Assembly: GCF_012849555.1 (NCBI RefSeq)
Contig: NZ_CP051685.1
Coordinates: 1,116,001-1,180,000, forward strand
From: Massilia forsythiae
Lineage (GTDB): Bacteria > Pseudomonadota > Gammaproteobacteria > Burkholderiales > Burkholderiaceae_D
Reading direction: 5' to 3'
Length of the DNA: 64,000 nucleotides
Position numbers and translations under genes: made by a program. The notes below the pieces were generated by a model that saw nothing but the letters and a program-made list of their open reading frames with translations, was not told where the DNA came from and did no database searches. Shown here piece after piece: positions 44,993 to 64,000 of this stretch; position 1 is the stretch's first letter; the number at the start of each line of letters is the position of its first letter.

Positions 44993-45312
44993 CACCTGCA
45001 TCTTCAGCTTGCCGATCTCGCTGTACAGCTTGTCCTCGGCACTGCTTTCGTCCACCGGCTTCGGCCCGCGCTTGACGTCGAACAGCGCGCCGGCGTTCTC
45101 CAGAATCTCCTTCTTCCACTGCGTCACCAACTGCGGATGCACGTCGTGCTCCTGCGCGATCTCGTTGATCGTCTTCACCCCGCGCACCGCTTCCAGCCCG
45201 ATCTTGCCCTTGAACTCCGCACTGTGCACCCTGCGTTTTTTACCTTCACTCATTCGCTGTCATCCTTTCGCGGACGACAGCTTAAACCACTGTCTCAAAT
45301 TCAGGGGCCACT
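43968..45312 (-). mobile_element. IS3-family insertion sequence
   Basis: About 1345 bases bounded by AGTGGCCCC and GGGGCCACT. It contains orfA and orfB in the usual overlapping order with an A9G slippery run. orfB carries two in-frame stops, so the copy is probably inactive. A clear target duplication is not visible at the ends I chose, so the outer bases are approximate. Confidence 0.85.
44963..45253 (-). CDS. IS3-family OrfA (HTH transposase subunit)
   Basis: 96 residues. The helix-turn-helix domain reads RRVHSAEFKGKIGLEAVRGV, INEIAQEHDVHPQLVTQWKK; a leucine-zipper-like end reads SEIGKLKMQVDWLKKKLGE. The run of nine A followed by G near 44977-44986 encodes the KKK and is the expected site of programmed -1 frameshifting into OrfB. 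OrfA itself looks intact. Confidence 0.9.
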   Translation of the reverse strand: MSEGKKRRVHSAEFKGKIGLEAVRGVKTINEIAQEHDVHPQLVTQWKKEILENAGALFDVKRGPKPVDESSAEDKLYSEIGKLKMQVDWLKKKLGE

Positions 45313-45353: not shown

Positions 45354-45932
45354 CTATTCGAACCCACATTTTCTAGCAGCAGATATTACTTGCTGCAGCT
45401 TTTGCAAATTAATCCCTGCTGTTCGCTTTTCGATGCAGCTTTGTAAATCATGGAATCCAATTAAATTATTGGGGGTCACATCAGCAGCAAATGGAAATTT
45501 AAAATATTCCCCACTAGGCGGCCTAAATTCGAAGAGTGCGAATACTATCGTATTCCTCTTCCTCCCAAATGAAAGTTTTTTTAGACTGACTGCTGGATTA
45601 CCAGTACACTCCCATGTCGATTCAGTTCTAGCAGAAGTAAACAATATTATCCCTGATTTATTATTTATACCATAGTAAAGAAAACATTCCATTTTTGATG
45701 AACCATCTCGCCGCAGTGCAGACCCGGCAGAAATATATTCCCCCGTTTCTTTGTCCTTAAATGATTGATTTTTAAATTGACTAAAAATCAAATTCGGAAA
45801 CTTCTGAATTTGGTTGACATAATTGCCTTGCGAAACCAACTCAGAATCTGACACTGGGACCAGTTGCGCATGCGCGGAGCAATGTGCATAAAACAAAAAT
45901 ATAAAAACACTCTTAATTTTTATACTTCTCAT
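45354..45932 (-). CDS. Secreted protein, predicted immunity to the muramidase toxin
   Basis: 192 residues. A Sec signal peptide (SVFIFLFYAHCSAHAQ, cleavage after AHA) makes it periplasmic. The mature protein is soluble, with Cys residues in KMECFLYYG, STWECTGNP, LQSCIEKR and ARKCGFE that could form two disulfides. No family recognised. ATG at 45932 overlaps the end of the giant RHS gene by 20 bases and has its own strong GAGAGAGG site. A muramidase acts in the periplasm, so a periplasmic partner encoded just behind it fits an immunity protein. The DNA is much AT-richer than the RHS core. The IS5-type element ends about three bases beyond its stop. Confidence 0.75.
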   Translation of the reverse strand: MRSIKIKSVFIFLFYAHCSAHAQLVPVSDSELVSQGNYVNQIQKFPNLIFSQFKNQSFKDKETGEYISAGSALRRDGSSKMECFLYYGINNKSGIILFTSARTESTWECTGNPAVSLKKLSFGRKRNTIVFALFEFRPPSGEYFKFPFAADVTPNNLIGFHDLQSCIEKRTAGINLQKLQQVISAARKCGFE

Positions 45933-48900
45933 ATGCCTCTCTCATTTTATTATCATAGTTGTTTTCCCGATAATTAGGTCCGTTATACTTTCGCGCAAAA
46001 ACGGACCAATCTTTTTCTCGCAAAGCATTGAGGAGACCCCGATCACTTCCCACAAAATCTGCAAATGCTTTCAATTGAACATCCGCACCCTGACGTTGTG
46101 AATCTACAAAATCCGTTACCGAATTATATCCCGCCGCTCGGTAATTTGCTCCCATGATTTGAAACTGTCCCCAAGAAGTAGATTTTAAAGCTGCCGTATT
46201 GTCTAGCGCAAATGCTATATCTAGCTTCCTGTACTGATTATCGCCACTGGCACCATACCCACCAGAAATTGAATTCGAAATTTCTGGATTTGAAGCATCG
46301 AAAACTCCATTTGTAAGTCGATGAAAGTAGTGACGTTCAAAAAGGATTTTTGGCCTACCATCGCTAAAGAATCCATTACCTTTACTTTCAACCTCAGCGA
46401 CGGCTTTAATAGCAGCCACCTCAACATTAAGCTTTCGTGCTGCATTTGCAAAAGCCGCCTCACTCACGTTTATTTGAGGCTTAGTAGGAGGTATTGCAAC
46501 TGCGCGCACATTTAGCTGCCCTACTGGCGTCACTTGTCGAGAGGCGGCAGTTGTTTTCCTACTGGAGCGCGAAGTTGGCGCGCTTCGCCCATAATCTGGC
46601 ATTGAACTCCGCATTTGCTGTTTATACCATGCCTCCTGGTCCTCTATAGACAGTCGCTTTCCGACTACAATCACTCTTTGACTGGTTAGGTCTTCAACTG
46701 ATATTTCTGGCCTTGAAAGAAATTCTCCTGCCTTCGGCAAGACACCACCATTGCTGTCAGCAGCGCTTTCCAATGCTTTTAATTCTTCATCTGTAGCAAA
46801 ATCAGCGCGAGCATCAGTTCCATATTCAGCTAATCTTGCCCGTAACTGACCGTACTCGTTCTCGGAAAATTTAGAATTATTTAAAAATGCTGTTTGGTTT
46901 CCGTTTGAAATTTGATTTTTATTTGGATCGCGTCTCGCTTCAAAATTAGAAGCCAACACGTTTCCAAAAACATCAATCGCAATCGACTGCGACGACACCT
47001 TTCCGCCACTTGCAAACGTCCCCAATGTTTGACCAGCAGTTTGCGAAATTATTGAACGGTATACCTTATCGGTACCCGACAGCAGCTGACTATCGAACAA
47101 GCTCCTGCCCACGCCAGCGGAAATCGCCGATCCGAGCACGCTCTTCCATTGGAAGCCCTTCTGCAAGTTCAGCGCAATGCCAACGGCTTGCGAACTCGCA
47201 TTGGCAATGGCCGCATTTTTAGCCACATCCCACCAGTCGCCACCCACTTTGGCATTCAACCCGCCGCTTACCGCTGCCCCGACTGCACTGGTAAAGACCT
47301 CGCCCCAGCTGAACGAATCGCGAACGCCGAGGTCGATGGCGATGGCCTGGCCGGCGATGCTGCCGGCAGCGGCACCGATACCTAACGATGCAGCGGCGGC
47401 ACCCGTACTACCCAGTATGCTGCTGAGCCAGGCGCCGCCGCCGCCCAGCCAGCTGGTTGCCAATCCCTGGGTCGCGAACGTTACCGCAAGCGTCACCGCA
47501 ATGATGACGAGCTTGCTGCCGCAACTCGCATCCGACCTGGCTGGCAATGGCAAGGTCGGCGTCGTACTGCCGATCGCGTCGCTCGGATTATACGGCGTGA
47601 ACGTGTCCGCATCGTTGTGCACCACGTTGGCCCGTGCCGGCAGCCTCAGCGTCTGGCCTATGGTCAACGGCGAGTCGACCTCGAGGTTGTTGGCGTTCGC
47701 GATCAGGTACCACAGGTTGGCGTCGCCCCAGACCGACTTGGCGATCGACTTCAGGTTTTCGCCACCCTGCACGTGGTAGATGCTCGGCGAGGCCAGGTTG
47801 GCGCCCGTGGTCGCGGACTGGTAGGCGTTCGCGAAGTTGCTCGGATCGGCCTCGTCGCTGTTGGAGCCGAGTACCTCGCCGTTGACGATCAGCGTGCGCA
47901 CCATCTCGCCGGACTGGGTCGACATCAGTACCCGGCCCTCGGCATCGTTGATGTAGGTGCGGTCCTTACCCGGTGCGCTGGTGTCGACCACTTTCACGAC
48001 ATTGCCGTTTGCGTCGAGCGTCGTGGTGGTGTACTCGGGCTTGCCGTTAATCGAACCCCTGACCTGTATCTCCTTCGCGGAATCGAAGTAGGCATACGTG
48101 TTGAAGTAGATCGAATGCTGTCGCCCGGTGCCGTCGTCATGCGGATGCACGACGGCGTAGCCAATCGGATTGCCGGCGCCATCATAGCCACCCTCCGCAC
48201 CATTGGCGAGGTAGTAAATATCGTCCAGGAAATCGTGGTTCAAGGCCCAGAATTTCAGGCGCTGGAGTTCGCCCCCTTTGGTGTAGTGATAGGTCCTGTA
48301 CTCGCCGGCGATGCCGAAACTCTTCAGCCGATCGTTGTTGGTCCCTTCGGGTGGGCCGCTCCGGATAACGCGGCCGAACTCGTCGTAGTAACGGCGGTCG
48401 ATGACGATGCCGTCGCGCGTGACCTGGGACAGGCGTCCGGTGTCGTCTTCGTACTGGTACCTCTCGGTCGTCGGCAGGTATGGCCCGCCCTTCTGCGCGT
48501 CCTTGTACATGTAGCTGTCGGTCTCGCGCCGGCCGAAACCGTCATAAGTGATCACGTGCCCCTTGTCGCCCATGACGATGTTGCCGTTGACGTTGATGCC
48601 GTTCGCGACGACTTCGCGGTTCATCTCGTCGTACTTGTTCCAGGCATCGCTGTCCACCGCCCTGCCACTGCTGTCGACATAGTGCGTCGCCACATGCAGG
48701 CGATTGCCGTTGTCGTCGTAGCCGATGTCGACGGTAAAATGCCCGTCCTCGACGTGCTCCATGCGGCCGTACTGGTCGTAGCGGATGGTATTGTTCTGCA
48801 CGAGCAGCGGACCGCCCTCGGCATTGCGCGCCAGCGCCTTCTCGGTCACGCGGTTGCCGGTAAGATCGTAGGTATACGTGGTCAAGAGTCCGGTAGCATG

Positions 48901-51900
48901 GTCGTCGATCGTCGTCAGCAGGCCATGGTCGTAGGTGTAAACGATGTTCTGCGCGCCGCTGCCCTGACGCGCGGTCGACCATTGGTGGATCAGGTGGCCC
49001 TGGCCATCGTACTCGTAGCGGATCTGGGCGCCCCCCTGGTCCACGTGGCCCACCACGCGGCCGAAGGCATCGACATTCCACGTCATCGACTTGCCGGCGC
49101 CGTCCACCTCGGCGACCTTGTGGCCATAGGCATCGTAGACCGACCTGGTCTGGCGGCCGGCGTTGTCGATCTGGGCAACGACGTTGCCGGCGAGGTCGTA
49201 GCGCGTCAGGCTCGAGATCACTTCATGGATTTTGTCGGATTGTCCTCCCGCATTAGCGGGATACTTCTGCGTAGAGGTGGCATAGCGCCGGCCGAGCTCG
49301 TCGTACGCAAATTCTTCGCGGACTTCCCAATTGCCAGGGTTGAGCAGGGCTGTCATTCCGCCGCCATCGCTTTGATCGACGGTGTAATACACATGCGAGG
49401 AATAACGCGACGACGAGGCCAGGTTACCCATGTGATCGTATGTATACAGCGTCGCATAGCCATCCCTGGCCTGCAGCGAGGTCCGCTCCCCGAATGCGTT
49501 CACCGCATACGATTCTCCGCTGCCGTCGGCGAAGCGCGTCGTCGACAGGCCGAACCCGAAATATCCCGTGAAGGTGAGGTTGCCGTTGGCATCGCGGTTG
49601 CCGGTGGCGCGCCCCATCTCGTCGTAGTAATTCAGCTCGCTCGAACGCACGGTCGGTACGCCACCATTCATCAGCACAACCGATTTCTCGGTCTGCTGAT
49701 TGAAGCTGTTGTAGCTGTAGGTGATGCGCCAGTCGAGGTTGCGCGGGTCGGTCACTTCGACCACGTTGCCCCAACGGTCGTACTTGACGTGGCTGGTCGG
49801 CGTGCGCATGGCAACCGAGTCTGGCTGTCCTTCCGCAAGCTTGACGGTGCCGTCCACGCGCGCCGCGTCCAGGTGCAGTACCGCGCGGTCCATCAGGTCG
49901 TAACGGGTCTCGACCACGTCGACGCCCTTTACCTCGAGATACGGTGTGGACAATGCGTCGTGCACGTCCTTGGCACTGGTGTACAGGCGCAGGTCATCCA
50001 GGGTGCCTCCGGCATGGTCGGTGCCGGTCGCCTGCTGCGTCAGGTTGCCGCGGATGTCGTAGAACATCACCTTGGTAATGCCGTCGCCGGCATTGGTGTG
50101 CCACACGTTGCCCGCGTTGTCGTACTCGGCGAATTCGTACACGTTGCCGTTCATGCTGCGCGACGTCACCTCGCCGAAGGCGTTGTAGGTCAGCGACTGC
50201 ACGTTGCGTCCGATGTCGGCCGGCGCCTTGTCCACGATGGTCGACGACAGCGGCGCGACGCTGCCGTCGAAGTCCTGGCGCAATTCCCATTCGCCGTTGG
50301 CGTTCTGGACATAGACCTTCACGCGCTGGACCGACTTGATGCCGCCGCCCACCTGGTCGTTTTCCGACCAGATCAGCGTGGCGCCGCCATCGGTGCGCTG
50401 CAGCGGCAACTCTCCTTCCGCAGCCGGATAGCTGAAGGTCTTCTGGGCCGGGTCACCCGGCTTCACGCCGTTTGGAATCCAGATCGGCTTGAAGCCGTCC
50501 AGGCCGAGCTTGAATTGCGGGTTGTCGGCCTGCGTGTAATCCACAACCACACGAATCGGCGCATTGCCGGTGTCCGGGAATCGCACGCTGATGGTATTGG
50601 TGCCGGTGAAGATCGATTTGGTCTGCGACGGATCGAACGATCCGGGTGCCGATTCGACCGATGCCACGCCTACTGCCGGCAACGGCATCGCATTCGTGCT
50701 GCCCGGCGTGGTCACCGACGTCATCTGGCCGGTGGCGTCGTAGTGGAACAGCTTGTAGCTGGTGAGCGTGACCGCGCTGGTCGCGGAACTGCGGTCGGTC
50801 ACGGTCTGCCATTCCTTGGCCAGCCTGCCGGCCGCGTCGTAGGAGCGCCGCGTGATGTTGAGGTTACCGTCGGTGACGGCCAGCGCGTTCCCCATCAGGT
50901 CGTAGGTCGTACTCGTGGTGCGGTCGTCGGCGCTGGCCAGCATCGGCGAGCTGGCGCCGTCGTACAGGGCCTGGTACTTGGCGTGGGCGATCTGCGTCAG
51001 CACGTTGCCGTAGGCATCGCGCACGAAGTCGGTGACGATCCAGACGCGGTTCGGGTCGTTCGGATTCTCGGGATCGTAGGGTGGCGTAGGGGTCGGCTGA
51101 GGCTCAGGGTCCGGCAGCGGCTCGGGCCTGAGGATGATCTGCGAGCGGCCGACGCCGTCGTTGCGGCTGGCGACCCGCGTCACGCGGCCGACCGCGTCGT
51201 AGAAGCTGAGGACCGTGTTCCCCAGCGGATCCGTGGTCGAGGTCAGGTTGCCGACACCGTCGTACTCATAGCTCGTGACCAGCGTGTCGCGCAGGGCCGA
51301 ATAGTTGCCGTCCCAGGTGAAGTTGTCGAACGCCGTGTTCACCTGCAGTTGGGCTTGCTTGCGGTCGTTCAGGTCGTACTCGTACCTGGTGTCGCGGTCG
51401 CTCTCGGTCAACGCCGGCGATTCCGGATTCATGTCGTACAGCCCATCTTCCGGCCCGCGCGGATCCCTGCTGCGTTGCGCGTATTCGTAGGTGCGGGTCA
51501 GGTTGCCGAACGCATCGTATTCCATGCGCGTCAGGTAGCCGCCGCTGTCGGTCGCGACCTTGTCTTCGTAATTGTGGGCCAGGCGGTTGCTGTTCTCGGT
51601 GTCGGCAAGGACGAATTCCGCCGTCTTTTCGCCGCGCCGGTTGTAGTACATGCGGGTGACGGCGGCTTCGCCGAGCTGCTCGCCGTCCCTGAAGTCGCCG
51701 CGTACGCCGTAGACTTTCTTCGCGGTGACATCGCCGAAGGCGTCGTAGTCGAAGCTGGTTACCTTGCGCAGCTCGGCGTAGCCCATCCAGGTTTCGTCGT
51801 TGCCATAGCCGCCGACGGCGGTGTAGTTGTAGGTGGCCGCTTCGGCGACCTTGATCTTGCGGCCGAGCCCGTCGTACTGCGTATCCACCGCCCGGTCCAG

Positions 51901-54900
51901 GATGCTGGCGTGCAGCTCGACGGCGCTGCGCATGGTCGCCAGCGAGAAATCGGTCACCGGTCCGTAGCCGACGGGGTTGGCGGGCATGTTGCGCTTGGCG
52001 CGCAGCTCCAGGTTGAGGTCGTCGTCATCGCCGCGGTCGATGGCGCGTCCGGCCAGGAAATCCAGCACGGCCTGGGCGCGCGACGAGGCGTTCTCCGCCG
52101 CGCCCGTCCACCACTGCAGGTCCTGGCCGGGCTCGCGTCCGAGCGCATGCTCGCTCAGGAGCGTGACCAGGGCAGCACCATCCATGTCTTGCGGATACAG
52201 CGCGCGGCCCTCCGTGCCATCCATCAGTACGTGCACCAGGCCGGCTTCGCTGCCGCCGGATGCCAGGTAGGTCATGCCGTCCGCCAGCTCGGCGGCGCTC
52301 GGCGCCCTGCCCAGCACGGCCGTGTAGATCAGGCTGATGCGGTAGCGCTGCGAGCTCAACATCTGCGGATGCAGGTAGTCCTCGACCTTGTTGACGAAGA
52401 AATCCTGGTCGCGTTGCGTCGGTGCCTCGCCGATCATGCGCACGAGCAGCTGGCCGCGGGTCACGCCCTCGGCGCTGCCGATATTGGTCCAGTAGGTGGT
52501 CTCGGCCTCGGACGGGGCGCGTCCGAACGCCGTATCGAAGATGCGCGCCACATAGTCGGGCAAGCTCATGCCCGGCAGGTTGAAGAACGCCGATTCCTTG
52601 GATTTGAGAATCGTGTCGGCGACCTGTGCCAGGGTCTGGCCCTGTTTCAGGAACTGCAGCCAGTAGTTCAAGCCGCCGCCATCCGGCGCGCGGTTGTACA
52701 TCGTCACATACAGCTTGCCGATGTCTTCCTTGGCCGCCTTGTCGGGATCGGCCAGGGCATTCAGCCCCTCGGCATAGCGCGTCAACTTCTCGACGCCGCC
52801 GAAGGCATCGTACTCGTAGCCGGTGACGTTCTGGAGCGCGTCGATCTCGAACACGACCCGGCCGAGCACGTCGTACACCTTGCGGCTGACGTTGCCGTTG
52901 GCGTCGGTGCCTTCGACGGCGTTGCCGAGCGCGTCGTAGGTGACGGTGGTGAAAGGCGCCACATGGATGACGTGATAATCGGCGTCGGCGGCCGACAGCG
53001 GATCCGAGGCCGGATCGTAGACGGCGGTCAGCGGCAGCGTGGTCCTGACCTGGCGTCCCACCAGGTCGTAGCCGTAGCTGGTGGTGCGCGGATGCGGCCC
53101 GCCATAGCCTTCGGTGCGCGAGGTCATGCGCCCCATCGCGTCGTACGCCATGTGCGTCTCGACCTCCACCATTCCGATAATGCCTTGCTCGTTGGGCACC
53201 AGCACCGCCGGCGCCCGTTCCACCAGCAGGCGGCCGGCCGCGTCGTACGCGTAGGTCCAGGTCGCGCCGTTGCGGTTGGTATAGCTGGCCTTGCGGCCGA
53301 GCGCGTCGTAGGTGTACGTCTCGGCCTTGCCCATGGCGTCGACGCTGGTGACGAGGTTGCCCTGGTTGTCGTACTGCGACTGGGTGCGGCGGGTCTGCGG
53401 ATCGCTGGTATCGACCAGGCCGAGCACGTCGGCGACCGAGGCGTCGTCGCCCACCACGATCTGGGTGGCGTAGCGGATGCTGTCCGACACCAGGCCCAGG
53501 CCGTTGTAGCGCGTCTCCGTGACGTAGCCTTCGGGATCGATGCTCAGGCGCGGCAGGCCGTCGGCGCCATACACCGTGCGGTGGACGCGGTAGTCGGCTT
53601 CGTTGTTGGCGTTGTCGACCTGGCGTACCAGATGGCCGGCGCCGTCGTAGACATACGACGTGGCGACGCCCACGGCGTTGGTCATCACGGCGACGCGGTT
53701 GGCCGCATCGTAGTCGTAGTAGGTGACGCGGTCGCCTTCCGGGTTCCAGGGTTGCCCATAATGGCTTTCGAGCGCGGCCAGCACGGCCTCGCGCGTCACC
53801 GCGCCGCTCAGGCGGACCGGGTTGGCGTAGGCGATTTCGGCGAGCACGTTGCCGGCGCCGTCGTACTCGCGGCGCACGACGCCGCCGAGGGCGTCGATCG
53901 TGATGTTGAGGCGGTTGACGCTGTCGTAGACGTAGCGGGTGGTACTGTCGCGCGTGCCGTCGACGGCCACGCCGGCCAGCCATTCCTGCATCTGGCCGTC
54001 GGAAAGCGTGCCTTGCGCCGGCGCGCCGCCCAGGAAGTTGGCGTAGCTGGTACGTGCAAGAACGTTACCGTCCGCATCGAACTCCTGGCGCGTGACCGAC
54101 CACAGCAGGGTATTAGCATCACCGCGCTGCGCCGTCGCCGACGCCACCAGGCGGCCGGCGGCGTCGTAGCGCATGCGTACGCGCGCATCGTTGCCGTAGC
54201 TGGCCGGCACCGTCGCCAGCCATGCGACGACCTGCGCCTGGGTGGCGTCCGGCGCCAGGCCGGCATCCGACAGGTGGGTCACGTAGTCGGTGCGGTCGAT
54301 CACCCGGCCGGCGCCGTCGTAGGCCTGGGTGCTGACCGACCAGTAGGACGCGTCCTCGTCGCCGTACTGCTTGACTGCGCTGGCGACCAGGCGGCCGGCG
54401 CCGTCGTAGACCATGCGCTTGGCAGCCACCGTTCCAGTTTCCGGCGATCCGGTAATGCTGGCGATGACGTTGAAGTTGCCGTCGTAGGTGTAGGTGGTGA
54501 CGCCGCCGGCGGCGTTGGTCTGCTGCGCGACCCGGCCGCGCACGTCGTAGGTGTAGGAGACCGAGACTTCGCCGCTACCGCCGGCAGGCACCCATGCGCG
54601 CACCGCGGCGTCGGTCAGGGCGACTTCCGGCGGCAGCAAGTTGGAATACTGCGTGGTCTCGGCCAGGCGGCCATTGCCGTCGTAGCGCTGCTGCGTGAAG
54701 CTGCGGTCGCCCTCGACGGTGAAATGCAGGCGCCCGTCCTGGTCGTACAGGTAGGTGGTGACGTTGTCGCGGCTCGGGTCCGGCGCCAGGTGTTCCTGGA
54801 CGGTGGCCAGGTCGAGACGAACGCCGTCGTCGACGAACTGCGCCACGGTCGCGCCCACCAGCGGGCGCGCGTAGCGCGTCACCGAGGCGATGCGATCGCT

Positions 54901-57900
54901 GCCCTGCTCGTAGGTGTACACGGTCACGTCGCCGGCGGCATCGACCTCGCCGACCTTGCGGCCGTCGGCATCGTACATGTAGTGCGTGACGTTGCCCTTG
55001 GCGTCGTAGCTGCGGAACGGCGCGGTACCGAGATCATCGTACACATAGATCGTCGTCAGCCGCAGGCCGTCCGGATCGACGATGGTGGCGATGCGCCGGC
55101 CGACGATGTCATACTGGTACTCGGTCACGTGGCCGGCCGGATCGGTCATGCGCAGCACGTGGCCCAGGTTGTCGTAGTCGAAGCTGGTGGTCAATGCCAA
55201 GCCACCCGGCTCGGCGCTGCGCACCGTCGTCTGCACGCGGCCCAGCACGTCGTAGGTGGTGGCCGTCATGACGCCGGTCGGGTCGGTTACGGTCAGGGTG
55301 CGGCCCTGAGTGTCGTAGGTATAGCTGGTGACGAGATTCAGGCCGTCCACGTCGACGGTACGGCGCAGCACGCGGTCGACGCTGTCGTATTCGATCTTCG
55401 TCACGCTGCCGTTGCCGTCGGTCGTGGTCGTCAGGTTGCCGGCAAAATCGTAGGTGTGCGCTTCGCTGACACCGAATTTGTCGCTGACCGACTTGAGGTG
55501 GCCGTCCTGGTCGTAGGCATACGTGGTCTTTTCGCCGTTCAGGTCGATCAATTCGGCGACGTCGCCCTGGGCGGTGCGCACCACCGTATGCACGGCGCCT
55601 TCGGCGGTGGTCACGGTCATGCTGCGCGCCGCGGTGTCGTAGCGGTAGGTGGTGGTACCGCCGGCATTGCTGGTCTCGGTCACAACCCGGTCGAAGGCAT
55701 CGTAGGTGGTGGTGCCGCCGACGCCCTCGGCACTGGTCACGGCGATCTGGCGGCCGAGGCGGTCGTAACGGTAGGTTTCGCCGTCACCGTCGGTGGTTTG
55801 GCTGTAGATGACGCGGCCGAAGGCGTCGCGCGAAATGAAGGACCTGCTCAGCTTGGGCTCGCCGCGCGTGAAGCCGTCATACTGGGACTGCAATTCACCG
55901 CGTACAGTGTAGGTATAGCGGGATTGCGCGATGCGGCCGTCGCCGATGTCGGCTTCGTCGAGCGTCAGCTGGTTGAAACTGTCGTAGCTCAGGGTATGCG
56001 TGCCGTTCTCGTCGCTGCGCGAGGTCATCCTGCCGTCGGCATCGTAGCCGTAGGTGGCCACGTAGTCGTGCGCGCCGTCGCGCAACAGCGCCAGGCGGCT
56101 TTCGATCAGGCCGAATTCGCCGCCCGCCATGCCCGCCAGTTCGGCCTCGCCGATACGCTGTGCATAGCGGGTGACGGTGGCGACCTGGTTGATGGCGTTG
56201 TACTCGCGCCGTTCGACTTCGCCGGCGGCATTGACGGTGGCTGCCAGGCGGCCATCCTTGTCGTAGTAGTAGCGGGTCACGTGACCGTTGGGGTCGGTCA
56301 TCGTGGTGCGGTGGTTGGCCTTGTCGTAGGTGTACCTGGTGGCGTATGCGGTCCACACGGCTTCCTGCTGCGCCGGCGTGGTGACCAGCGCCAGCCGGGC
56401 TGCGCCGACACCGGTCAGCTCCGCCGTCACGCGGCCGAGGGCGTCGTAGCGCACCAAGCCATTGCGCGCGCCATCGCTGTTGTAAGCGGACGTGGTCGAG
56501 GTGCGGTTGCCGACGGCATCGTATTCGTAACGCGTTATCGAACCGTCCACGCCGGTCACGCTGCGCAGATGGTTGAGGGCGTCGTAGGTGTAGGTGATCG
56601 ACTGGCTGCCGGAAGCGTCTTGCGCCAGTACCTGCGCCAACGTGGTCTGGCCGGGCTGGAAAGCGACCCGGTTGGCGTAGCGCACGGTACGGCCGAGATT
56701 GCCCGCCGCGTCGTAGGAACGCACGGTCAGGTAGTTTTCGCCGTCGATCTCGGCGACCAGCTGGCCCTTGGCATCGTATAGGTTGTATTCGTGGATGTCG
56801 TCCGCATGGCTGGCGTCGCCGGCGGCCGGACGGAAGTCGGCCAGCGCCGAGGTCAGGTCCGGCTTTTTCACGAGGCCCGCGTAGCGCACGGTTTCCACCA
56901 GTTGGCCGGCGCCGTCGTAGCGGTATTCCGTCAGGTAGCCCGCCGCGTCGACCTCGCCGGCCGGCTTGCCGTCGTTGGTATAGAAATAGCGCTGCATGCG
57001 GTCGTTCGCACTTGCCGCCGGCGGCACTCCCTTGGGGCTGCCCAAGGCAACGTCGACGGGCGTGTAGCGCTGGATCTCGGCCAGCATGCGGCCGACGCCG
57101 TCGTAGACGGTCGAGGTGACGTTGCCGGCGCCGTCGACGGATTCGGCCAGGCGGCCGGCGGCGTCGTAGAAGCGCCATTCGTGCACGTCCAGCGCGCTGG
57201 ACTGGAGACGCAACTGCTCCGGACGCATGTTGATCAGCCTGGTGCCGCGCAGATTCGCGTCGAGGCGCGTGGCGCGCTGGATCACCTCGCCGAGCTGGCC
57301 CTTGGCGTCGTACTTGTATTCGACCACGCTGCCGTCGCCGTCGATGTCCACCGCCTTGCGCCCCAGGCTGTCGTACAGCGTGAAGTTGCGGTTGCCGTTG
57401 GCATCCTGCACCATGGCCAGCCGGCCTTCGGCATCGTAGGCGTAGTACACCTCGGTGAGGACGGTGGTACCGCTTTTCTCGAGCACGCCGAGGGTGCGAC
57501 CCGACGTATCCAGGATCGTTTCGGTGACGCGTCCATTGGGATAAGTGGTGAAGGTCCGATTGACCGCGACCGTCGCGCCGCTCAGATCCAGGTAGCTGCC
57601 GCCCTGGGCGTAGGTCGTCCTGACGCTATTGGAGCCGGCATCGACCGTGGTCAGCAGGCGGTCCAGGTTGTCGTACGCATACGCCGTGGCATTGCCGTCG
57701 GCGTCGATCTTTTCCAGCAGCCGGCCGGCCTGGTCATAGGTGAAGTGGGTGACCGATTGCATGCCATTGCGGATACCGCTGCCGTCGGCGGCCAGGTCGC
57801 TGTAGGTCGTGGCCGTGGCCACCAGGCCGCGGATGTCGTAGCCGTAATCGGTGCGCACGGCACGGGTCTTGTCGGCGCCGGCTACCCAGCGCGCCAGTTC

Positions 57901-59319
57901 TGCCTCGCTTGGAGCGGCGCCGGTGACGGCGTAGCGGTCCTGCGTATAAGCGATGGCGGCCTGGCGCTGGCCGCGCTGGTCGTAGCGGAATTCCTGGACG
58001 CCCTGGTCGCCATCGACGACGAAACGCAGGTGCTCGTGCGCATCGTAGACATAATAGGTGGTGCTGGCGTCGGCCGGATTGGCGGGCCCTTCGCCGTCGG
58101 GATCGACGTCGCGGAACACGGTTTCGCTTTGCAGCAGGTTGGTCGCGGTATAGGTACGGGTGACGACATGGCCGGTGCTGTCGCGCTCGTAGATGACGTT
58201 ACCGTTGCCATCGTGGCGCTTGACGGTGACGTTGCCGTTCGGTTCGACGATCTTGGTGACGTTGCCCTTGGCGTCGTACTCGAAATACGTGTTGAGGCTG
58301 GCGCCATTGGCACCCGCCATCTCGGTGTGCAGGATCTGGCCGTTGTTGTCGAAGGTGTAGTAGGTGACCGTGCCGTCCTTGTCGGTGACGGTGGTCCGGT
58401 TGCCGGCATAGCTGAACGTGTCGTTCTCGTACTTGCCGTCGCTGACGGTGGCAATGCGGCCGGCATCGTAGGTGAACGTCAGCTTGTTGCCGTCGCTCTG
58501 CTCGATCGTGGCGATGCGCCGGCTGGCGCCGTCATAAGTGTACTTGGTGCTGAATGTGCCTCTGATCGACAGGAAGGTATCGACTTGCGCGAGCCGGCCC
58601 TGGTTGTCGTAAAAATACTCGACACGGTTGGCGGATTCGAGTTCGCCGTCGGCAGTCTCGCGATATGCGACATCGACCGATTGCAGCTCCTTGCCGCTAG
58701 GGCCCCCATACGTGAAGAAGGTGCCGGCGCCGGTGGCATCGGTGACCGAGGCCAGCATGCCGTTCGACTGGTAATTGAAGGCCAGGCGGTTGCCGTCCAG
58801 GTCGACCATCGACAGCAGGCGGCCGCCGTTGGTGCCGTCATACGTTTCAGCGAGGTCGGTCGTGCCGGTTTGCCAGGTCCAGATTTTGGTGCCGGCGTCG
58901 TAGCTGAGCGTGTCGAAGGCTTCGCCGCCGTCGGTGGTGACGTACAGGCGGCGCGTCGCGTCGTAGGTGAAACGGTAGCGCGTATCGTCGCCATCGATGC
59001 GGTCGATGGTGCTGCCGACACTGTTCGGAGCGCCGGACAGGCCGGTCACCTGGCGCGACAGGCCGAGCTTCCAGTTGTCGCCATTGTCGTCGTCGGTCTT
59101 GCCTTGGGAATTGTAGGTGCGACCCACCGCGATGTCGATTCCGACCGCCGCCAGGAAGTCGTCCTGGCGCTGGATCACCAGGTTGCCGTTGCTGGCATTG
59201 ACATACACCGCTTGCCCGTCCTGCCCCTGCAGCGCCTTGCCGGCCATGCCACGCTGTCCCAACAATGCTGCAGAGCCGTTCAACAAACCCAGACCGTTAC
59301 CGCCGACGATTGCTACCAT
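45913..59319 (-). CDS. Giant YD/RHS-repeat polymorphic toxin with C-terminal N-acetylmuramidase domain
   Basis: About 4468 residues; start ATG 59319 with GGGAGAG upstream. No signal peptide, PAAR or transmembrane start; it begins MVAIVGGNGLGLLNGSAALL, then GQAVYVNASNGNLVIQRQDD. Residues about 70-3840 are YD repeats (YDAxGR/YTYDxxGN units). A DUF4214-type segment sits inside them at about 2200-2430 (LYVTMYNRAPDGGGLNYWLQ). A LysM domain follows at about 3845-3895 (HVQGGENLKSIAKSVWGDAN), then an Ala/Gly-rich hydrophobic part (about 3930-4100). The tip (about 4285-4468) is N-acetylmuramidase-like: AAIKAVAEVESKGNGFFSDG with the likely catalytic Glu near 4310, RPKILFERHYFHRLT, and LKSTSWGQFQIMGANYRAAG. 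The classical Rhs core ending DPxGL is missing. It would cut peptidoglycan of rivals; the export route is unknown. Confidence 0.9.
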   Translation of the reverse strand: MVAIVGGNGLGLLNGSAALLGQRGMAGKALQGQDGQAVYVNASNGNLVIQRQDDFLAAVGIDIAVGRTYNSQGKTDDDNGDNWKLGLSRQVTGLSGAPNSVGSTIDRIDGDDTRYRFTYDATRRLYVTTDGGEAFDTLSYDAGTKIWTWQTGTTDLAETYDGTNGGRLLSMVDLDGNRLAFNYQSNGMLASVTDATGAGTFFTYGGPSGKELQSVDVAYRETADGELESANRVEYFYDNQGRLAQVDTFLSIRGTFSTKYTYDGASRRIATIEQSDGNKLTFTYDAGRIATVSDGKYENDTFSYAGNRTTVTDKDGTVTYYTFDNNGQILHTEMAGANGASLNTYFEYDAKGNVTKIVEPNGNVTVKRHDGNGNVIYERDSTGHVVTRTYTATNLLQSETVFRDVDPDGEGPANPADASTTYYVYDAHEHLRFVVDGDQGVQEFRYDQRGQRQAAIAYTQDRYAVTGAAPSEAELARWVAGADKTRAVRTDYGYDIRGLVATATTYSDLAADGSGIRNGMQSVTHFTYDQAGRLLEKIDADGNATAYAYDNLDRLLTTVDAGSNSVRTTYAQGGSYLDLSGATVAVNRTFTTYPNGRVTETILDTSGRTLGVLEKSGTTVLTEVYYAYDAEGRLAMVQDANGNRNFTLYDSLGRKAVDIDGDGSVVEYKYDAKGQLGEVIQRATRLDANLRGTRLINMRPEQLRLQSSALDVHEWRFYDAAGRLAESVDGAGNVTSTVYDGVGRMLAEIQRYTPVDVALGSPKGVPPAASANDRMQRYFYTNDGKPAGEVDAAGYLTEYRYDGAGQLVETVRYAGLVKKPDLTSALADFRPAAGDASHADDIHEYNLYDAKGQLVAEIDGENYLTVRSYDAAGNLGRTVRYANRVAFQPGQTTLAQVLAQDASGSQSITYTYDALNHLRSVTGVDGSITRYEYDAVGNRTSTTSAYNSDGARNGLVRYDALGRVTAELTGVGAARLALVTTPAQQEAVWTAYATRYTYDKANHRTTMTDPNGHVTRYYYDKDGRLAATVNAAGEVERREYNAINQVATVTRYAQRIGEAELAGMAGGEFGLIESRLALLRDGAHDYVATYGYDADGRMTSRSDENGTHTLSYDSFNQLTLDEADIGDGRIAQSRYTYTVRGELQSQYDGFTRGEPKLSRSFISRDAFGRVIYSQTTDGDGETYRYDRLGRQIAVTSAEGVGGTTTYDAFDRVVTETSNAGGTTTYRYDTAARSMTVTTAEGAVHTVVRTAQGDVAELIDLNGEKTTYAYDQDGHLKSVSDKFGVSEAHTYDFAGNLTTTTDGNGSVTKIEYDSVDRVLRRTVDVDGLNLVTSYTYDTQGRTLTVTDPTGVMTATTYDVLGRVQTTVRSAEPGGLALTTSFDYDNLGHVLRMTDPAGHVTEYQYDIVGRRIATIVDPDGLRLTTIYVYDDLGTAPFRSYDAKGNVTHYMYDADGRKVGEVDAAGDVTVYTYEQGSDRIASVTRYARPLVGATVAQFVDDGVRLDLATVQEHLAPDPSRDNVTTYLYDQDGRLHFTVEGDRSFTQQRYDGNGRLAETTQYSNLLPPEVALTDAAVRAWVPAGGSGEVSVSYTYDVRGRVAQQTNAAGGVTTYTYDGNFNVIASITGSPETGTVAAKRMVYDGAGRLVASAVKQYGDEDASYWSVSTQAYDGAGRVIDRTDYVTHLSDAGLAPDATQAQVVAWLATVPASYGNDARVRMRYDAAGRLVASATAQRGDANTLLWSVTRQEFDADGNVLARTSYANFLGGAPAQGTLSDGQMQEWLAGVAVDGTRDSTTRYVYDSVNRLNITIDALGGVVRREYDGAGNVLAEIAYANPVRLSGAVTREAVLAALESHYGQPWNPEGDRVTYYDYDAANRVAVMTNAVGVATSYVYDGAGHLVRQVDNANNEADYRVHRTVYGADGLPRLSIDPEGYVTETRYNGLGLVSDSIRYATQIVVGDDASVADVLGLVDTSDPQTRRTQSQYDNQGNLVTSVDAMGKAETYTYDALGRKASYTNRNGATWTYAYDAAGRLLVERAPAVLVPNEQGIIGMVEVETHMAYDAMGRMTSRTEGYGGPHPRTTSYGYDLVGRQVRTTLPLTAVYDPASDPLSAADADYHVIHVAPFTTVTYDALGNAVEGTDANGNVSRKVYDVLGRVVFEIDALQNVTGYEYDAFGGVEKLTRYAEGLNALADPDKAAKEDIGKLYVTMYNRAPDGGGLNYWLQFLKQGQTLAQVADTILKSKESAFFNLPGMSLPDYVARIFDTAFGRAPSEAETTYWTNIGSAEGVTRGQLLVRMIGEAPTQRDQDFFVNKVEDYLHPQMLSSQRYRISLIYTAVLGRAPSAAELADGMTYLASGGSEAGLVHVLMDGTEGRALYPQDMDGAALVTLLSEHALGREPGQDLQWWTGAAENASSRAQAVLDFLAGRAIDRGDDDDLNLELRAKRNMPANPVGYGPVTDFSLATMRSAVELHASILDRAVDTQYDGLGRKIKVAEAATYNYTAVGGYGNDETWMGYAELRKVTSFDYDAFGDVTAKKVYGVRGDFRDGEQLGEAAVTRMYYNRRGEKTAEFVLADTENSNRLAHNYEDKVATDSGGYLTRMEYDAFGNLTRTYEYAQRSRDPRGPEDGLYDMNPESPALTESDRDTRYEYDLNDRKQAQLQVNTAFDNFTWDGNYSALRDTLVTSYEYDGVGNLTSTTDPLGNTVLSFYDAVGRVTRVASRNDGVGRSQIILRPEPLPDPEPQPTPTPPYDPENPNDPNRVWIVTDFVRDAYGNVLTQIAHAKYQALYDGASSPMLASADDRTTSTTYDLMGNALAVTDGNLNITRRSYDAAGRLAKEWQTVTDRSSATSAVTLTSYKLFHYDATGQMTSVTTPGSTNAMPLPAVGVASVESAPGSFDPSQTKSIFTGTNTISVRFPDTGNAPIRVVVDYTQADNPQFKLGLDGFKPIWIPNGVKPGDPAQKTFSYPAAEGELPLQRTDGGATLIWSENDQVGGGIKSVQRVKVYVQNANGEWELRQDFDGSVAPLSSTIVDKAPADIGRNVQSLTYNAFGEVTSRSMNGNVYEFAEYDNAGNVWHTNAGDGITKVMFYDIRGNLTQQATGTDHAGGTLDDLRLYTSAKDVHDALSTPYLEVKGVDVVETRYDLMDRAVLHLDAARVDGTVKLAEGQPDSVAMRTPTSHVKYDRWGNVVEVTDPRNLDWRITYSYNSFNQQTEKSVVLMNGGVPTVRSSELNYYDEMGRATGNRDANGNLTFTGYFGFGLSTTRFADGSGESYAVNAFGERTSLQARDGYATLYTYDHMGNLASSSRYSSHVYYTVDQSDGGGMTALLNPGNWEVREEFAYDELGRRYATSTQKYPANAGGQSDKIHEVISSLTRYDLAGNVVAQIDNAGRQTRSVYDAYGHKVAEVDGAGKSMTWNVDAFGRVVGHVDQGGAQIRYEYDGQGHLIHQWSTARQGSGAQNIVYTYDHGLLTTIDDHATGLLTTYTYDLTGNRVTEKALARNAEGGPLLVQNNTIRYDQYGRMEHVEDGHFTVDIGYDDNGNRLHVATHYVDSSGRAVDSDAWNKYDEMNREVVANGINVNGNIVMGDKGHVITYDGFGRRETDSYMYKDAQKGGPYLPTTERYQYEDDTGRLSQVTRDGIVIDRRYYDEFGRVIRSGPPEGTNNDRLKSFGIAGEYRTYHYTKGGELQRLKFWALNHDFLDDIYYLANGAEGGYDGAGNPIGYAVVHPHDDGTGRQHSIYFNTYAYFDSAKEIQVRGSINGKPEYTTTTLDANGNVVKVVDTSAPGKDRTYINDAEGRVLMSTQSGEMVRTLIVNGEVLGSNSDEADPSNFANAYQSATTGANLASPSIYHVQGGENLKSIAKSVWGDANLWYLIANANNLEVDSPLTIGQTLRLPARANVVHNDADTFTPYNPSDAIGSTTPTLPLPARSDASCGSKLVIIAVTLAVTFATQGLATSWLGGGGAWLSSILGSTGAAAASLGIGAAAGSIAGQAIAIDLGVRDSFSWGEVFTSAVGAAVSGGLNAKVGGDWWDVAKNAAIANASSQAVGIALNLQKGFQWKSVLGSAISAGVGRSLFDSQLLSGTDKVYRSIISQTAGQTLGTFASGGKVSSQSIAIDVFGNVLASNFEARRDPNKNQISNGNQTAFLNNSKFSENEYGQLRARLAEYGTDARADFATDEELKALESAADSNGGVLPKAGEFLSRPEISVEDLTSQRVIVVGKRLSIEDQEAWYKQQMRSSMPDYGRSAPTSRSSRKTTAASRQVTPVGQLNVRAVAIPPTKPQINVSEAAFANAARKLNVEVAAIKAVAEVESKGNGFFSDGRPKILFERHYFHRLTNGVFDASNPEISNSISGGYGASGDNQYRKLDIAFALDNTAALKSTSWGQFQIMGANYRAAGYNSVTDFVDSQRQGADVQLKAFADFVGSDRGLLNALREKDWSVFARKYNGPNYRENNYDNKMREAYEKYKN

Positions 59320-59491
59320 TTGTGACTCTCCCAAGTGCGAACTGACGATTCATGCGGCGCCCGGAGGGGGTGTGCCGCTTACTTGGGAAGGTATCCAGGG
59401 GCTTAGAAATTTGTTTATAGCAAATTGATTTCTTTTTGAAAATTTTCTAATTTTGAATCGCTCCGGCTTTTGTGGATGCCCGCAGTATCAA

Positions 59492-59889: not shown

Positions 59890-60546
59890 TTAAGTCGTAA
59901 TTCCGTAATTTAATGAACCGCATTCCATGCAAGCCATTACATTCAAACTTTTCATATCTCCAATTATCAAAGCTCGCGGCTCTTTTTTTTCATATAGCGG
60001 AATATTCAGATCGTCATAATCAATAGTCGCAAAATATTCTAATTTACCTCCACAACACATGCAATTTTTTAACGGTTGAACTTCGTTTTTTATTTTTTTA
60101 CCTTTTAATTGATGCCTTACTCCACCTAAAATCTCACGCTTTGCATATTTTTCCAAAAATTCCTTTTCATTCCATACGCTTTCAGCTACTGCAACCAGCG
60201 TTACAGCACGGCTCTCAAAAGGGGTATCGATGAAATTGCTTGGTCCATTCCCATCAATATATCCACCAGCAGCAACTCTATTACCATTATCAATTCGAAC
60301 AAAATAATTCTTTAAAGAATGCGAACAAAAAGGGCAAACATCCATTGTGACGTATCCTAACTCATCGTAAAAATTGAGGTCAGGCATGCCATTAATAGAT
60401 TTATGGATGGAAAAAACAGGGAACATTTTTTCACCACAATTTGGGCATTTACACAAGCCCGGTTTTTCCTCATTCAAGCTACCCACATATACTTTATCAT
60501 CATAAGCAGCTTTTTCAGGTTGAATTTCCAAAAAATACCCGACCAT
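59890..60546 (-). CDS. Cys-rich protein, predicted immunity to the second RHS toxin
   Basis: 218 residues, no signal peptide, so cytoplasmic. Two zinc-ribbon-like sets are visible: Cys34/37 (LCKCPNCGEK) with Cys71/74 (VCPFCSH), and Cys162/164/165 (NCMCCGGK) with Cys206/209 (ACMECGS). No family recognised. Its ATG overlaps the stop of the upstream RHS gene as TAATG, so the two are translationally coupled. It is AT-rich like the toxin tip before it. A cytoplasmic partner suits a nuclease toxin. The immunity role is inferred from position. Confidence 0.7.
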   Translation of the reverse strand: MVGYFLEIQPEKAAYDDKVYVGSLNEEKPGLCKCPNCGEKMFPVFSIHKSINGMPDLNFYDELGYVTMDVCPFCSHSLKNYFVRIDNGNRVAAGGYIDGNGPSNFIDTPFESRAVTLVAVAESVWNEKEFLEKYAKREILGGVRHQLKGKKIKNEVQPLKNCMCCGGKLEYFATIDYDDLNIPLYEKKEPRALIIGDMKSLNVMACMECGSLNYGITT

Positions 60547-63500
60547 TATTTTCCTCTACGTGTACCTGGAGTTCTAGTTGGATTCAAAGCATCTTGTCTT
60601 TGTAGCTCCTCACGACTTATTCGAAGCATTTCTTCAGCATCAGCACGTTTAATTCCACCTTTTATCATAGCTTCCACTTGAATTTTTTCCTCAGCCTCTA
60701 AAGTATATACTTTTTGAGTTCTGGCATACTCAGCATTTAACCTTCGTTGCTCAGCAGAAATTGCATCATGATTATATGTTCCGTCATCTGCAACAGCTAC
60801 AGCATTTCTAGGATTATAGTTTTCATTATTACTCCTGCTTGCCTGCTGATGTGGGTGATGGCCTTGAACATCACTGTATGATCCTACCGTATGGGGCCCC
60901 ACCTGTTGGCGCTCGATAATATTGTTAACCGTGATACCTCGATTAACGAGTGCATCTACTCCCTTATTTAATACGGTATCAACAACACTGCCAACAACAT
61001 TCCCAGCAAATCGACCGATCTCATTAGGACCAATTTCAACTTCATATCCATGGACGCTGAAAGAAAAATTCCATTTCTTTCTTTCTGCAAGATCAGTGAC
61101 ATAGTCACGTGCCTGTATCTGAGCGAAAGTTGAAATAGCACCAGTGACATCGCCTACAGCAGATTCTAAACTGACCCTAGCAACCTCCATAGCGACTGTT
61201 TTTACTGGCCCCCCTCCAATAACGGCTTTTATACCAGCGTAGGTAGCAGTTGCAACCAACTGGTGTTCAGAATAGAAATCTGCAAATTCGGAAAGAAGCT
61301 GACTCGCTCCCAAGACGGTTTCAGAAATTATACTTTGGCCGCTTGGCCCAATATACTCGCCATTGATGGTTTCAGAATATCCCTCGCTACGTTGCTCTAT
61401 GGAATCATTTGAAAGTTGATCTAGGCCATGACTAGCAATTGGACTCGAATCATTTCTAAATGCATGAGCTACACGCGAACCGATTTCGCTTTCCGAAAAA
61501 TCACCCGGCGCCGCATCCAAACGACTTATAGGATCTGCCAATGCAACGGTAGCTTGCTGGATTTGCTCAAGTGTGGCTCCTCCTTGTACTGCGCCTTGAA
61601 CAAAGTTAAAAGAAGCTCGATACCTTGGATCTGCGATTGCACGGCCATTTTCGTTAAGTACATAAGGTGTGCCAGAGCGGTTTAACGTATCGATCAGTCT
61701 GCTGTTAGCACGTGATTCTTCAATAGTGGTCGAAATAGACTTACCGAGGGCTGTTCCTAGAGCATTACCAAACGCGTCGGCCACAATCGACTTTAATTCC
61801 AGCTTGCCTCCTGTAGCAACAGTCGCTACAGTCTGACCTGCAGTCTGAGCGATGGTCGATCGTGCAATTTCGTTAATACCGCTCAGCATCCTACTACTGG
61901 CTACGTTGCTGCTTACGCCAGCAGAAATCGCTGATGCCACCACCCCTTTCCAGTCAAAGCGATCCTGCACGCCAACAACTACTCCAACGCCCTGCGATAC
62001 AGCATTTGAGATCGCAGCATTCTTAGCTGCGTCCAAAGGCGAAGATGCCTTACCAAGGCCACCAGTTACTGCATTACCCACTGCGCTGGTGAATACTTCC
62101 CCCCAACTAAAGGAATCACGTACTCCAAGAGCAATACCGGTAACCTGACCGGCGACACTACCCAATGCCCCCGCCACAAAGCTTCCAAGGCCGGAAGTCG
62201 CCCACACGACAGCGATCGAGACCGCTGCCACAATCAATTTCTTAGCGCAGCTCCCCCCCGACTTGGAAGATTGCGCCGGCGGCAACGGCAGCGTCGGACT
62301 CGTATCACCGATCGCCTGTTGCGCGTTGTATGGCGTGAAGGTGCCCGCATCGTTATGCACGACGTTGGCCCGCGGCGGCAGTTTCAGCGTCTGCCCTTCG
62401 GTCAGCACCGAATCCACGTCCAGGTTGTTGGCGTTGGCGATCAGGTACCACAGGTTGGCGTCGCCCCATACCGCCTTGGCGATCGACTTCAGGGTATCGC
62501 CCTGCTGCACGTAGTGGATCGTCGGCGAAGCCAGGTTGGCGCCCGACAGGGCAGACTGGTAGCCATTGGCGAAATTGCTCGGATCGGCCTGGTCGCTGTT
62601 GCTTCCCAATACCTCGCCGTTGACGATCAGCGTGCGTTCGGTCTTGCCGCCCTGGTTCGTGAGCAGTACACGCCCTGCAGCGTCGTTGATGAAAGTGCGG
62701 TTCTTGTTCGTGGCGCTATTGTCGATGACGCCGATGACCGAGCCGTTCGCATCGAGGGTCGTGATGGTGGTCTGCGTTACCTTGTCGATCTTGCCGACCA
62801 CCTGGACTTCTTTCGCCGAATCGAAGTAGGTGTAGGTCGTGGTGTATTCCGAATGCCGGCTCGCGTTACCGAGGCTGTCCGCAGGAACTTGTACGTATTG
62901 GATCAGGTTGCCCGCGCCGTCATAGCCGGCGTTGGGATGGGACTGGATGGGCCTGTAATAGATGTCGTCGAGCTTGTCTGCCTTCAGATTGAATAACTTG
63001 ATGCGATCAACTTTACCGGCGGCGTTGTAGTGATACGTCTTGTAGTTCGTTGGAACACCGAGTTCCTTCATTCTGGATTCACTCTCGTTGCGCTTTGGCC
63101 CGCTCTTTACCACGCGTCCGAATTCGTCGTAGAAGCGTTCCTCGATCACCACGCCGTCGCGCGTCACAGTCGCTAAGCGGCCTAGCGTGTCGTACGCGAA
63201 ACGTTCAGTCGTTGGGACTGTATTATTTTGCGCATTCTTATAGTAGTAAGTATCGGTAGCCCGGCGGCCCAGGCTGTCATACGTGAGGCTGTGTCCCTTC
63301 GACCCCATACTGATACTGCCGTTGGCCTTGATACCGTTCGCGATCACCTCGCGATTCATGGAGTCATACGTGTTCCACACATCGGTATCGACCGCCTGTT
63401 TGTTGCTGTTGACGTAATGGGTCGTAACGCGGGTACGGTTGCCGTTGCTGTCGTACTCCATGTTGACCTTGAAGAAGTCGTCTTCGACCTGGCTCATGCG

Positions 63501-64000
63501 GCCATACGCATCGTAGGTGATGCGATTGTTCTGCGCGGTCAGTACCTGTCCGGCAGTCGAGATCGTCTGTTCCAGCACGTGGTTACCGGCCAGATCGTAT
63601 TTGTAAACCGTGACAAGGCCGACGCCCTGGTCGTCGATACGTGCAAGCAAGCCGTAATCGTAGGTATAAAAAATCTTCTGGGCACCGGTATTCTGGCGCG
63701 CGGTCGATTCTTGGTAAATCAGGTGTCCCTGGCCATCGTACTGGTACTGCACCGTCGCGCCGCCCTGGTCCACGTGGCTCATCACATGGCCGAAGGCATC
63801 GCTCTGCCAGCTCATGGTCTTGCCGGCGCCGTCCATTTCTGCAGTCTTGTGACCGTACGCATCGTAGACCCATCTCGTCCGGTTTCCGGCGTTGTCGATC
63901 TGGGCGATGACGTTGCCGGCCAGGTCGTAGCGGGTGATATTGGTAATCTCCGGACGACGGGTAGTACCCTGCTGCGCATAGCTGGTGGTGCGGTAGCGGC
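60546..64000 (-). CDS. Second giant YD/RHS-repeat polymorphic toxin, putative HNH/ENDO VII-type nuclease tip (5' end outside the window)
   Basis: The frame is open from the right edge to TAA at 60546, about 1150 codons. The YD-repeat part closely parallels the other RHS protein (YDLAGNVIAQIDNAGNRTRW). It is followed by the same LysM (HYVQQGDTLKSIAKAVWGDA) and the same Ala/Gly-rich hydrophobic part (DSFSWGEVFTSAVGNAVTGG). The two proteins diverge near nt 61700. The new tip of about 385 residues contains helical stretches and ends with SYSDVQGHHPHQQASRS, NYNPRNAVAVADD and NHDAISAEQRRLNAEYA, a His-rich pattern like HNH/ENDO VII-superfamily toxin nucleases. Nuclease assignment is moderate; the RHS call is firm. 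Confidence 0.85.
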   Translation of the reverse strand, partial: RYRTTSYAQQGTTRRPEITNITRYDLAGNVIAQIDNAGNRTRWVYDAYGHKTAEMDGAGKTMSWQSDAFGHVMSHVDQGGATVQYQYDGQGHLIYQESTARQNTGAQKIFYTYDYGLLARIDDQGVGLVTVYKYDLAGNHVLEQTISTAGQVLTAQNNRITYDAYGRMSQVEDDFFKVNMEYDSNGNRTRVTTHYVNSNKQAVDTDVWNTYDSMNREVIANGIKANGSISMGSKGHSLTYDSLGRRATDTYYYKNAQNNTVPTTERFAYDTLGRLATVTRDGVVIEERFYDEFGRVVKSGPKRNESESRMKELGVPTNYKTYHYNAAGKVDRIKLFNLKADKLDDIYYRPIQSHPNAGYDGAGNLIQYVQVPADSLGNASRHSEYTTTYTYFDSAKEVQVVGKIDKVTQTTITTLDANGSVIGVIDNSATNKNRTFINDAAGRVLLTNQGGKTERTLIVNGEVLGSNSDQADPSNFANGYQSALSGANLASPTIHYVQQGDTLKSIAKAVWGDANLWYLIANANNLDVDSVLTEGQTLKLPPRANVVHNDAGTFTPYNAQQAIGDTSPTLPLPPAQSSKSGGSCAKKLIVAAVSIAVVWATSGLGSFVAGALGSVAGQVTGIALGVRDSFSWGEVFTSAVGNAVTGGLGKASSPLDAAKNAAISNAVSQGVGVVVGVQDRFDWKGVVASAISAGVSSNVASSRMLSGINEIARSTIAQTAGQTVATVATGGKLELKSIVADAFGNALGTALGKSISTTIEESRANSRLIDTLNRSGTPYVLNENGRAIADPRYRASFNFVQGAVQGGATLEQIQQATVALADPISRLDAAPGDFSESEIGSRVAHAFRNDSSPIASHGLDQLSNDSIEQRSEGYSETINGEYIGPSGQSIISETVLGASQLLSEFADFYSEHQLVATATYAGIKAVIGGGPVKTVAMEVARVSLESAVGDVTGAISTFAQIQARDYVTDLAERKKWNFSFSVHGYEVEIGPNEIGRFAGNVVGSVVDTVLNKGVDALVNRGITVNNIIERQQVGPHTVGSYSDVQGHHPHQQASRSNNENYNPRNAVAVADDGTYNHDAISAEQRRLNAEYARTQKVYTLEAEEKIQVEAMIKGGIKRADAEEMLRISREELQRQDALNPTRTPGTRRGK

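Follow-up and report, generated by a model that had tools for sequence, protein, structure and literature searches.

An RHS protein of Massilia forsythiae with a predicted, divergent Tox-SHH-type nuclease tip and an orphan zinc-type partner as candidate immunity protein

The end of the second of two paralogous RHS genes in Massilia forsythiae raises the question whether its histidine-rich tip and the small cysteine-rich protein encoded directly after it form a toxin-immunity pair. We analysed a window of 64,000 nt (NZ_CP051685.1, positions 1,116,001-1,180,000; all coordinates below are window positions), in which the second RHS gene is organized as follows:

60546..63998+, minus strand: second RHS/YD-repeat protein, in-window part of 1150 aa (open reading frame; Pfam RHS_repeat, DUF4214, LysM, DUF6531)
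62376..62516, minus strand: LysM domain at in-window residues 495-541 (Pfam PF01476, E=2.8e-7)
60546..61752, minus strand: variable C-terminal part, dissimilar from the paralogue (from the end of the local alignment)
45913-59334: RHS paralogue (from alignment with the second RHS protein)

The full open frame of the second RHS gene comprises 4333 codons and extends past the window edge. Local alignment with the paralogue gives 42-84% identity per 50 residues, ends at residue ~749 (window ~61752), and is followed by complete divergence. The LysM domain is found in both RHS proteins, a hydrophobic segment is likewise common to them, and the alignment thus bears out the first-pass annotation, which had described shared LysM and hydrophobic segments followed by a different tip. 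Because the alignment stops near residue 749, the two proteins have a common shell and distinct last ~400 residues, and the variable part of the second protein exceeds the nuclease-like tip alone. The shell has a GC content of ~57%, the tip of 41%, and the partner gene of 36%, compared with 64% for the window; a drop toward tip and partner is what would be expected for an exchanged cassette. Pfam gave no match to a PAAR-type domain in the second RHS protein, and a secretion route for the shell was not found either. Beyond the window, an FHIPEP/flhA-like gene (L025:14801-16840, genome C1; E=1.6e-244) adjoins the second RHS gene on its start side, so that the tandem RHS genes border a flagellar region; by itself, this neighbour says nothing about RHS export.

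The AT-rich tail of the second RHS gene encodes GHHPHQ and a downstream NHDAISAEQRRLN, the two elements on which an HNH/Endo VII-type nuclease had been proposed, and both are present at the following positions:

60546..60950, minus strand: divergent Tox-SHH (HNH/Endo VII) tip, a predicted nuclease (Pfam below cut-off; BLASTP; hhalign)
60855..60863, minus strand: GHH, residues 1046-1048, predicted metal ligand and general base (aligned with the SHH of Tox-SHH tips)
60765..60773, minus strand: NHD, residues 1076-1078, predicted second metal-ligand histidine (aligned with the downstream histidine of L004 and L010)

The families that the annotation had named, Tox-HHH and Tox-GHH, did not match the tip in the profile search; the top Pfam match was instead Tox-SHH (PF15652), the sole HNH-class Pfam family to match, at 16.1-16.9 bits and E 0.011-0.02, under the curated cut-off of 22.7 bits. 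Comparison by hhalign of the tip with a Tox-SHH profile of seven rows (two of them nearly identical; from same-family genomes and from Paraburkholderia and Burkholderia plasmids) gave a Prob of 88.5 and a score of 40.0 over tip positions 26-106, with 28% identity over 81 aligned positions. Among 100 shuffles with histidines held fixed, the maximum score was 16.8, and none of the 100 reached the real score. BLASTP of the tip against the Tox-SHH tip of L004 gave a pairwise E of 4e-7. Tox-SHH has been described by the motif '[SG]HH, H' (PMC3482391); since this motif permits [SG]HH, the tip's GHH falls inside the description of the family, and GHH and NHD align with the motif histidines of L004 and L010. 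A precedent for activity is V2c, a Tox-SHH effector of Agrobacterium tumefaciens 1D1609: experiments have shown that it is a DNase, that it needs the matching histidine residues, and that V3c, its cognate immunity protein, neutralises it (PMC10902643).

Like Tox-SHH tips, the tip forms the end of an RHS protein and has [SG]HH followed by Q, Y and A further along, a downstream histidine accompanied by Q-R, and a helical C-terminal part. It differs in falling under the Pfam cut-off, in having G in place of S before HH, in not being paired with SUKH, and, compared with most Tox-SHH rows, in having no Trp after HHxxQ, a Trp also absent from L011. Taken together, the Pfam top match, the hhalign score relative to shuffles, the BLASTP match to L004, the [SG]HH motif, and the V2c precedent lead us to favour interpreting the tip as a divergent Tox-SHH-type nuclease (HNH/Endo VII, His-Me finger) whose Pfam score stays under the curated cut-off. 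The nuclease class that had been proposed is thereby supported, and the toxin would be a G-H-H variant of an already known type. A match of the tip to a non-nuclease profile, which the annotation had named as speaking against it, was looked for and not seen. There was likewise no NCBIfam match to the tip; a sequence search of solved structures and a PADLOC search returned nothing. Close relatives of the tip were not found among 369 class genomes, 295 family genomes, plasmids, phages, viral contigs, and GTDB scans made with short exact peptide patterns, which miss distant relatives. One apparent relative, L003 (E=0.0066), was discarded as spurious, its frame overlapping a sensor-kinase gene. 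A single-sequence AlphaFold2 model of the tip (mean pLDDT 62, below 50 in the histidine region, confident only in the C-terminal helices) was too poor to use.

The paralogue next door ends in a different toxin and is followed by a different small gene:

45913-46500, minus strand: end of the paralogue (N-acetylmuramidase)
45357-45941, minus strand: following gene of ~190 aa

Pfam identifies the paralogue tip as a cell-wall enzyme, an N-acetylmuramidase (PF11860, E=1.8e-62). The following gene starts with a segment resembling a signal peptide, matches no Pfam family above the cut-off, and likely encodes a periplasmic immunity protein for this cell-wall toxin. The locus thus has the polymorphic toxin layout: two paralogous shells, a muramidase tip in one vs. 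a Tox-SHH-like tip in the other, and a different downstream gene after each. Directly beyond the muramidase cassette lie transposase/integrase-like frames, IS3-type by eye (44001-45259, minus strand).

The gene after the Tox-SHH-like tip is the following:

59890..60546, minus strand: candidate immunity protein of 218 aa, carrying four CxxC and lacking an evident export signal (open reading frame; start overlaps the RHS stop)

The RHS stop and the partner ATG overlap by one base (TAATG), as had been noted, and GAGGA lies just upstream of the ATG. The partner has cysteines at positions 32, 34, 37, 71, 74, 162, 164, 165, 206, and 209, with CxxC at 34, 71, 162, and 206, so that the two cysteine sets previously described are real, and inspection by eye revealed no signal peptide. 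Its pI is 5.5, and that of the tip is 8.3. The muramidase partner has a signal-like start and the nuclease partner has none, and each downstream gene therefore suits the compartment of its own toxin, a pattern that is consistent but no proof. An internal duplication of the partner halves was ruled out, 176 of 1000 shuffles scoring as high. Pfam and NCBIfam searches gave only weak generic zinc-ribbon matches; an SMI1/KNR4 (SUKH) profile gave no match at E<=1, and a single-sequence AlphaFold model (mean pLDDT 29) was too poor to use. A terminator and promoter scan returned nothing exceeding chance. No relatives of the partner were found in 369 class genomes, 295 family genomes, plasmids, phages, and one GTDB scan by short exact peptide patterns, blind to distant relatives; the partner was thus not seen in these collections as a widespread gene without a toxin, the second finding that had been named as speaking against the proposal. 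By these searches the partner appears to be an orphan that matches no catalogued family, and it is the unusual element of the cassette.

In all seven Tox-SHH relatives checked, a small gene lies directly after the tip, with a Pfam match to SUKH in six (L004, L005, L010, L012, L035, and L036, the match in L035 being below cut-off) and to DUF7668 in one. The latter, L011 (Paraburkholderia plasmid, 1417-2185), has a Tox-SHH-like tip that also falls under the Tox-SHH cut-off (20.4 bits) and that is nearest in layout to the tip studied here (GTYSEV...SHH...TY-AE-R), followed by the DUF7668 gene (E=2.5e-15). A 2012 survey lists SUKH, Imm11, Imm24, Imm30, and Imm55 as Tox-SHH partners, and DUF1963-like, double-zinc, and DUF7668 partners are absent from that list (PMC3482391). 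The 218-aa partner occupies the same position as SUKH immunity proteins, directly after a Tox-SHH tip, but differs from SUKH (SMI1/KNR4) in being Cys-rich and in having no sequence match. The presence of a small gene after the tip in 7/7 relatives, together with the compartment fit, makes an immunity function for the partner likely.

The C-terminal half of the partner resembles the second repeat of DUF1963, a family grouped with TSR4/PDCD2 in the TYPP superfamily, which is marked by GGxP and a Gln and, in some members, by paired CxxC, and for which a chaperone-like or protein-binding role, not immunity, has been proposed (PMC4275035). In a pairwise BLASTP, L008, a DUF1963 protein from a same-genus genome, matched the C-terminal half at E=9e-5, and 0/1000 shuffles in which zinc knuckles were held fixed did equally well against L008. 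Against the DUF1963 C-repeat profile the C-terminal half scored 37.2, vs. a maximum of 28.5 in 200 knuckle-fixed shuffles, a result that is somewhat flattered, the profile having been picked after the earlier C-terminal result was known. The C-terminal half shares with the DUF1963 sequences L008, L032, and L013 an RHxLxG, a CxxC set, and then GD and a second CxxC, and the paired CxxC of the whole partner (34/71 and 162/206) recall a subset of TYPP members (superfamily: YwqG, TSR4, PDCD2, PDCD2L). In contrast, the N-terminal half was indistinguishable from any zinc knuckle, 118 of 200 knuckle-fixed shuffles matching DUF1963/TYPP as well. A match of the whole partner to TYPP, strong with a control that fixed only cysteines, was rejected when the N-terminal signal vanished once entire zinc knuckles were fixed. 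The partner further differs from the superfamily in having no Pfam match, no GGxP (LKGKK stands at the aligned place, and there is none in the N-terminal half), and no conserved Gln (the corresponding residue is Thr, FATID vs. YAQLD). Because GGxP and Gln are absent and only the C-terminal half exceeds strict shuffles, we call the partner TYPP-like in its C-terminal half and not a member. That it is a far-diverged, zinc-bound relative of the DUF1963/YwqG-TSR4/PDCD2 superfamily, recruited as inhibitor of an HNH nuclease toxin, is a tentative proposal that we hold to be somewhat doubtful. This possible kinship is the most interesting point of the locus: the papers found record no immunity role for DUF1963/TYPP, and if the partner both protects and is such a relative, it would provide a concrete binding target for a superfamily with only a guessed bacterial role. 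In a same-genus genome, L032 (reverse complement, 1507-1806) has a DUF1963-type second repeat in a 100-codon frame without a first repeat, and may be a remnant.

We consider it probable that the locus is an RHS-end polymorphic-toxin cassette in which a nuclease tip of the Tox-SHH kind is blocked by a co-translated 218-aa zinc-type protein. According to this proposal, the last ~110 aa of the RHS protein would constitute a His-Me finger nuclease (HNH/Endo VII) in the G-H-H variant of the Tox-SHH kind, in which H1048 would activate water and H1047 and H1077 would hold one metal ion; the RHS shell would bring the tip into the cytoplasm of a competitor, where it would cut nucleic acid, most likely DNA; and the 218-aa protein would stay in the cytoplasm of the producer, bind the tip, and block it. 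The coupling, position, and compartment of the 218-aa protein, set against the situation in the paralogue, make it likely that it protects the producer. The cassette would extend a well-studied group of antibacterial nucleases by a divergent G-H-H member and bring with it an immunity candidate outside the catalogued families. Counting against it are the score of the tip (16.9 vs. 22.7 bits), catalytic residues matched by alignment only, the two unusable structure models, the failure to match a PAAR-type domain or find a secretion route for the shell, and the finding, in the collections searched, of no close homologue of either protein that could reveal a recurrent pairing.

The same absence of a homologous pair that would show co-inheritance favours, as the strongest alternative, a nuclease tip that is followed by chance by a zinc protein unrelated to it (a regulator, adaptor, or chaperone), as do the chaperone-like or protein-binding role proposed for TYPP proteins (PMC4275035) and the DUF1963 relatives L008 and L032, whose flanks, over the short stretches read, show no RHS gene. 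However, the one-base stop/start overlap, the low GC that the 218-aa gene shares with the tip, and its location in the exact SUKH/DUF7668 position of Tox-SHH relatives argue against this alternative, and we regard it as unlikely. Less likely still is that the tip is a degenerate, inactive Tox-SHH remnant, as its weak Pfam score and the absence of the Trp after HHxxQ might suggest; L011 likewise has no such Trp, the open frame is intact and retains GHH and the downstream histidine, and the partner frame is intact and coupled. Very improbable is a non-nuclease function of the histidine motifs, for example in a metal-binding structural end: the single-sequence model, itself too poor to use, has no confident beta-beta-alpha core, but the ~80-residue similarity (tip positions 26-106) connects the tip with a family in which DNase activity has been demonstrated.
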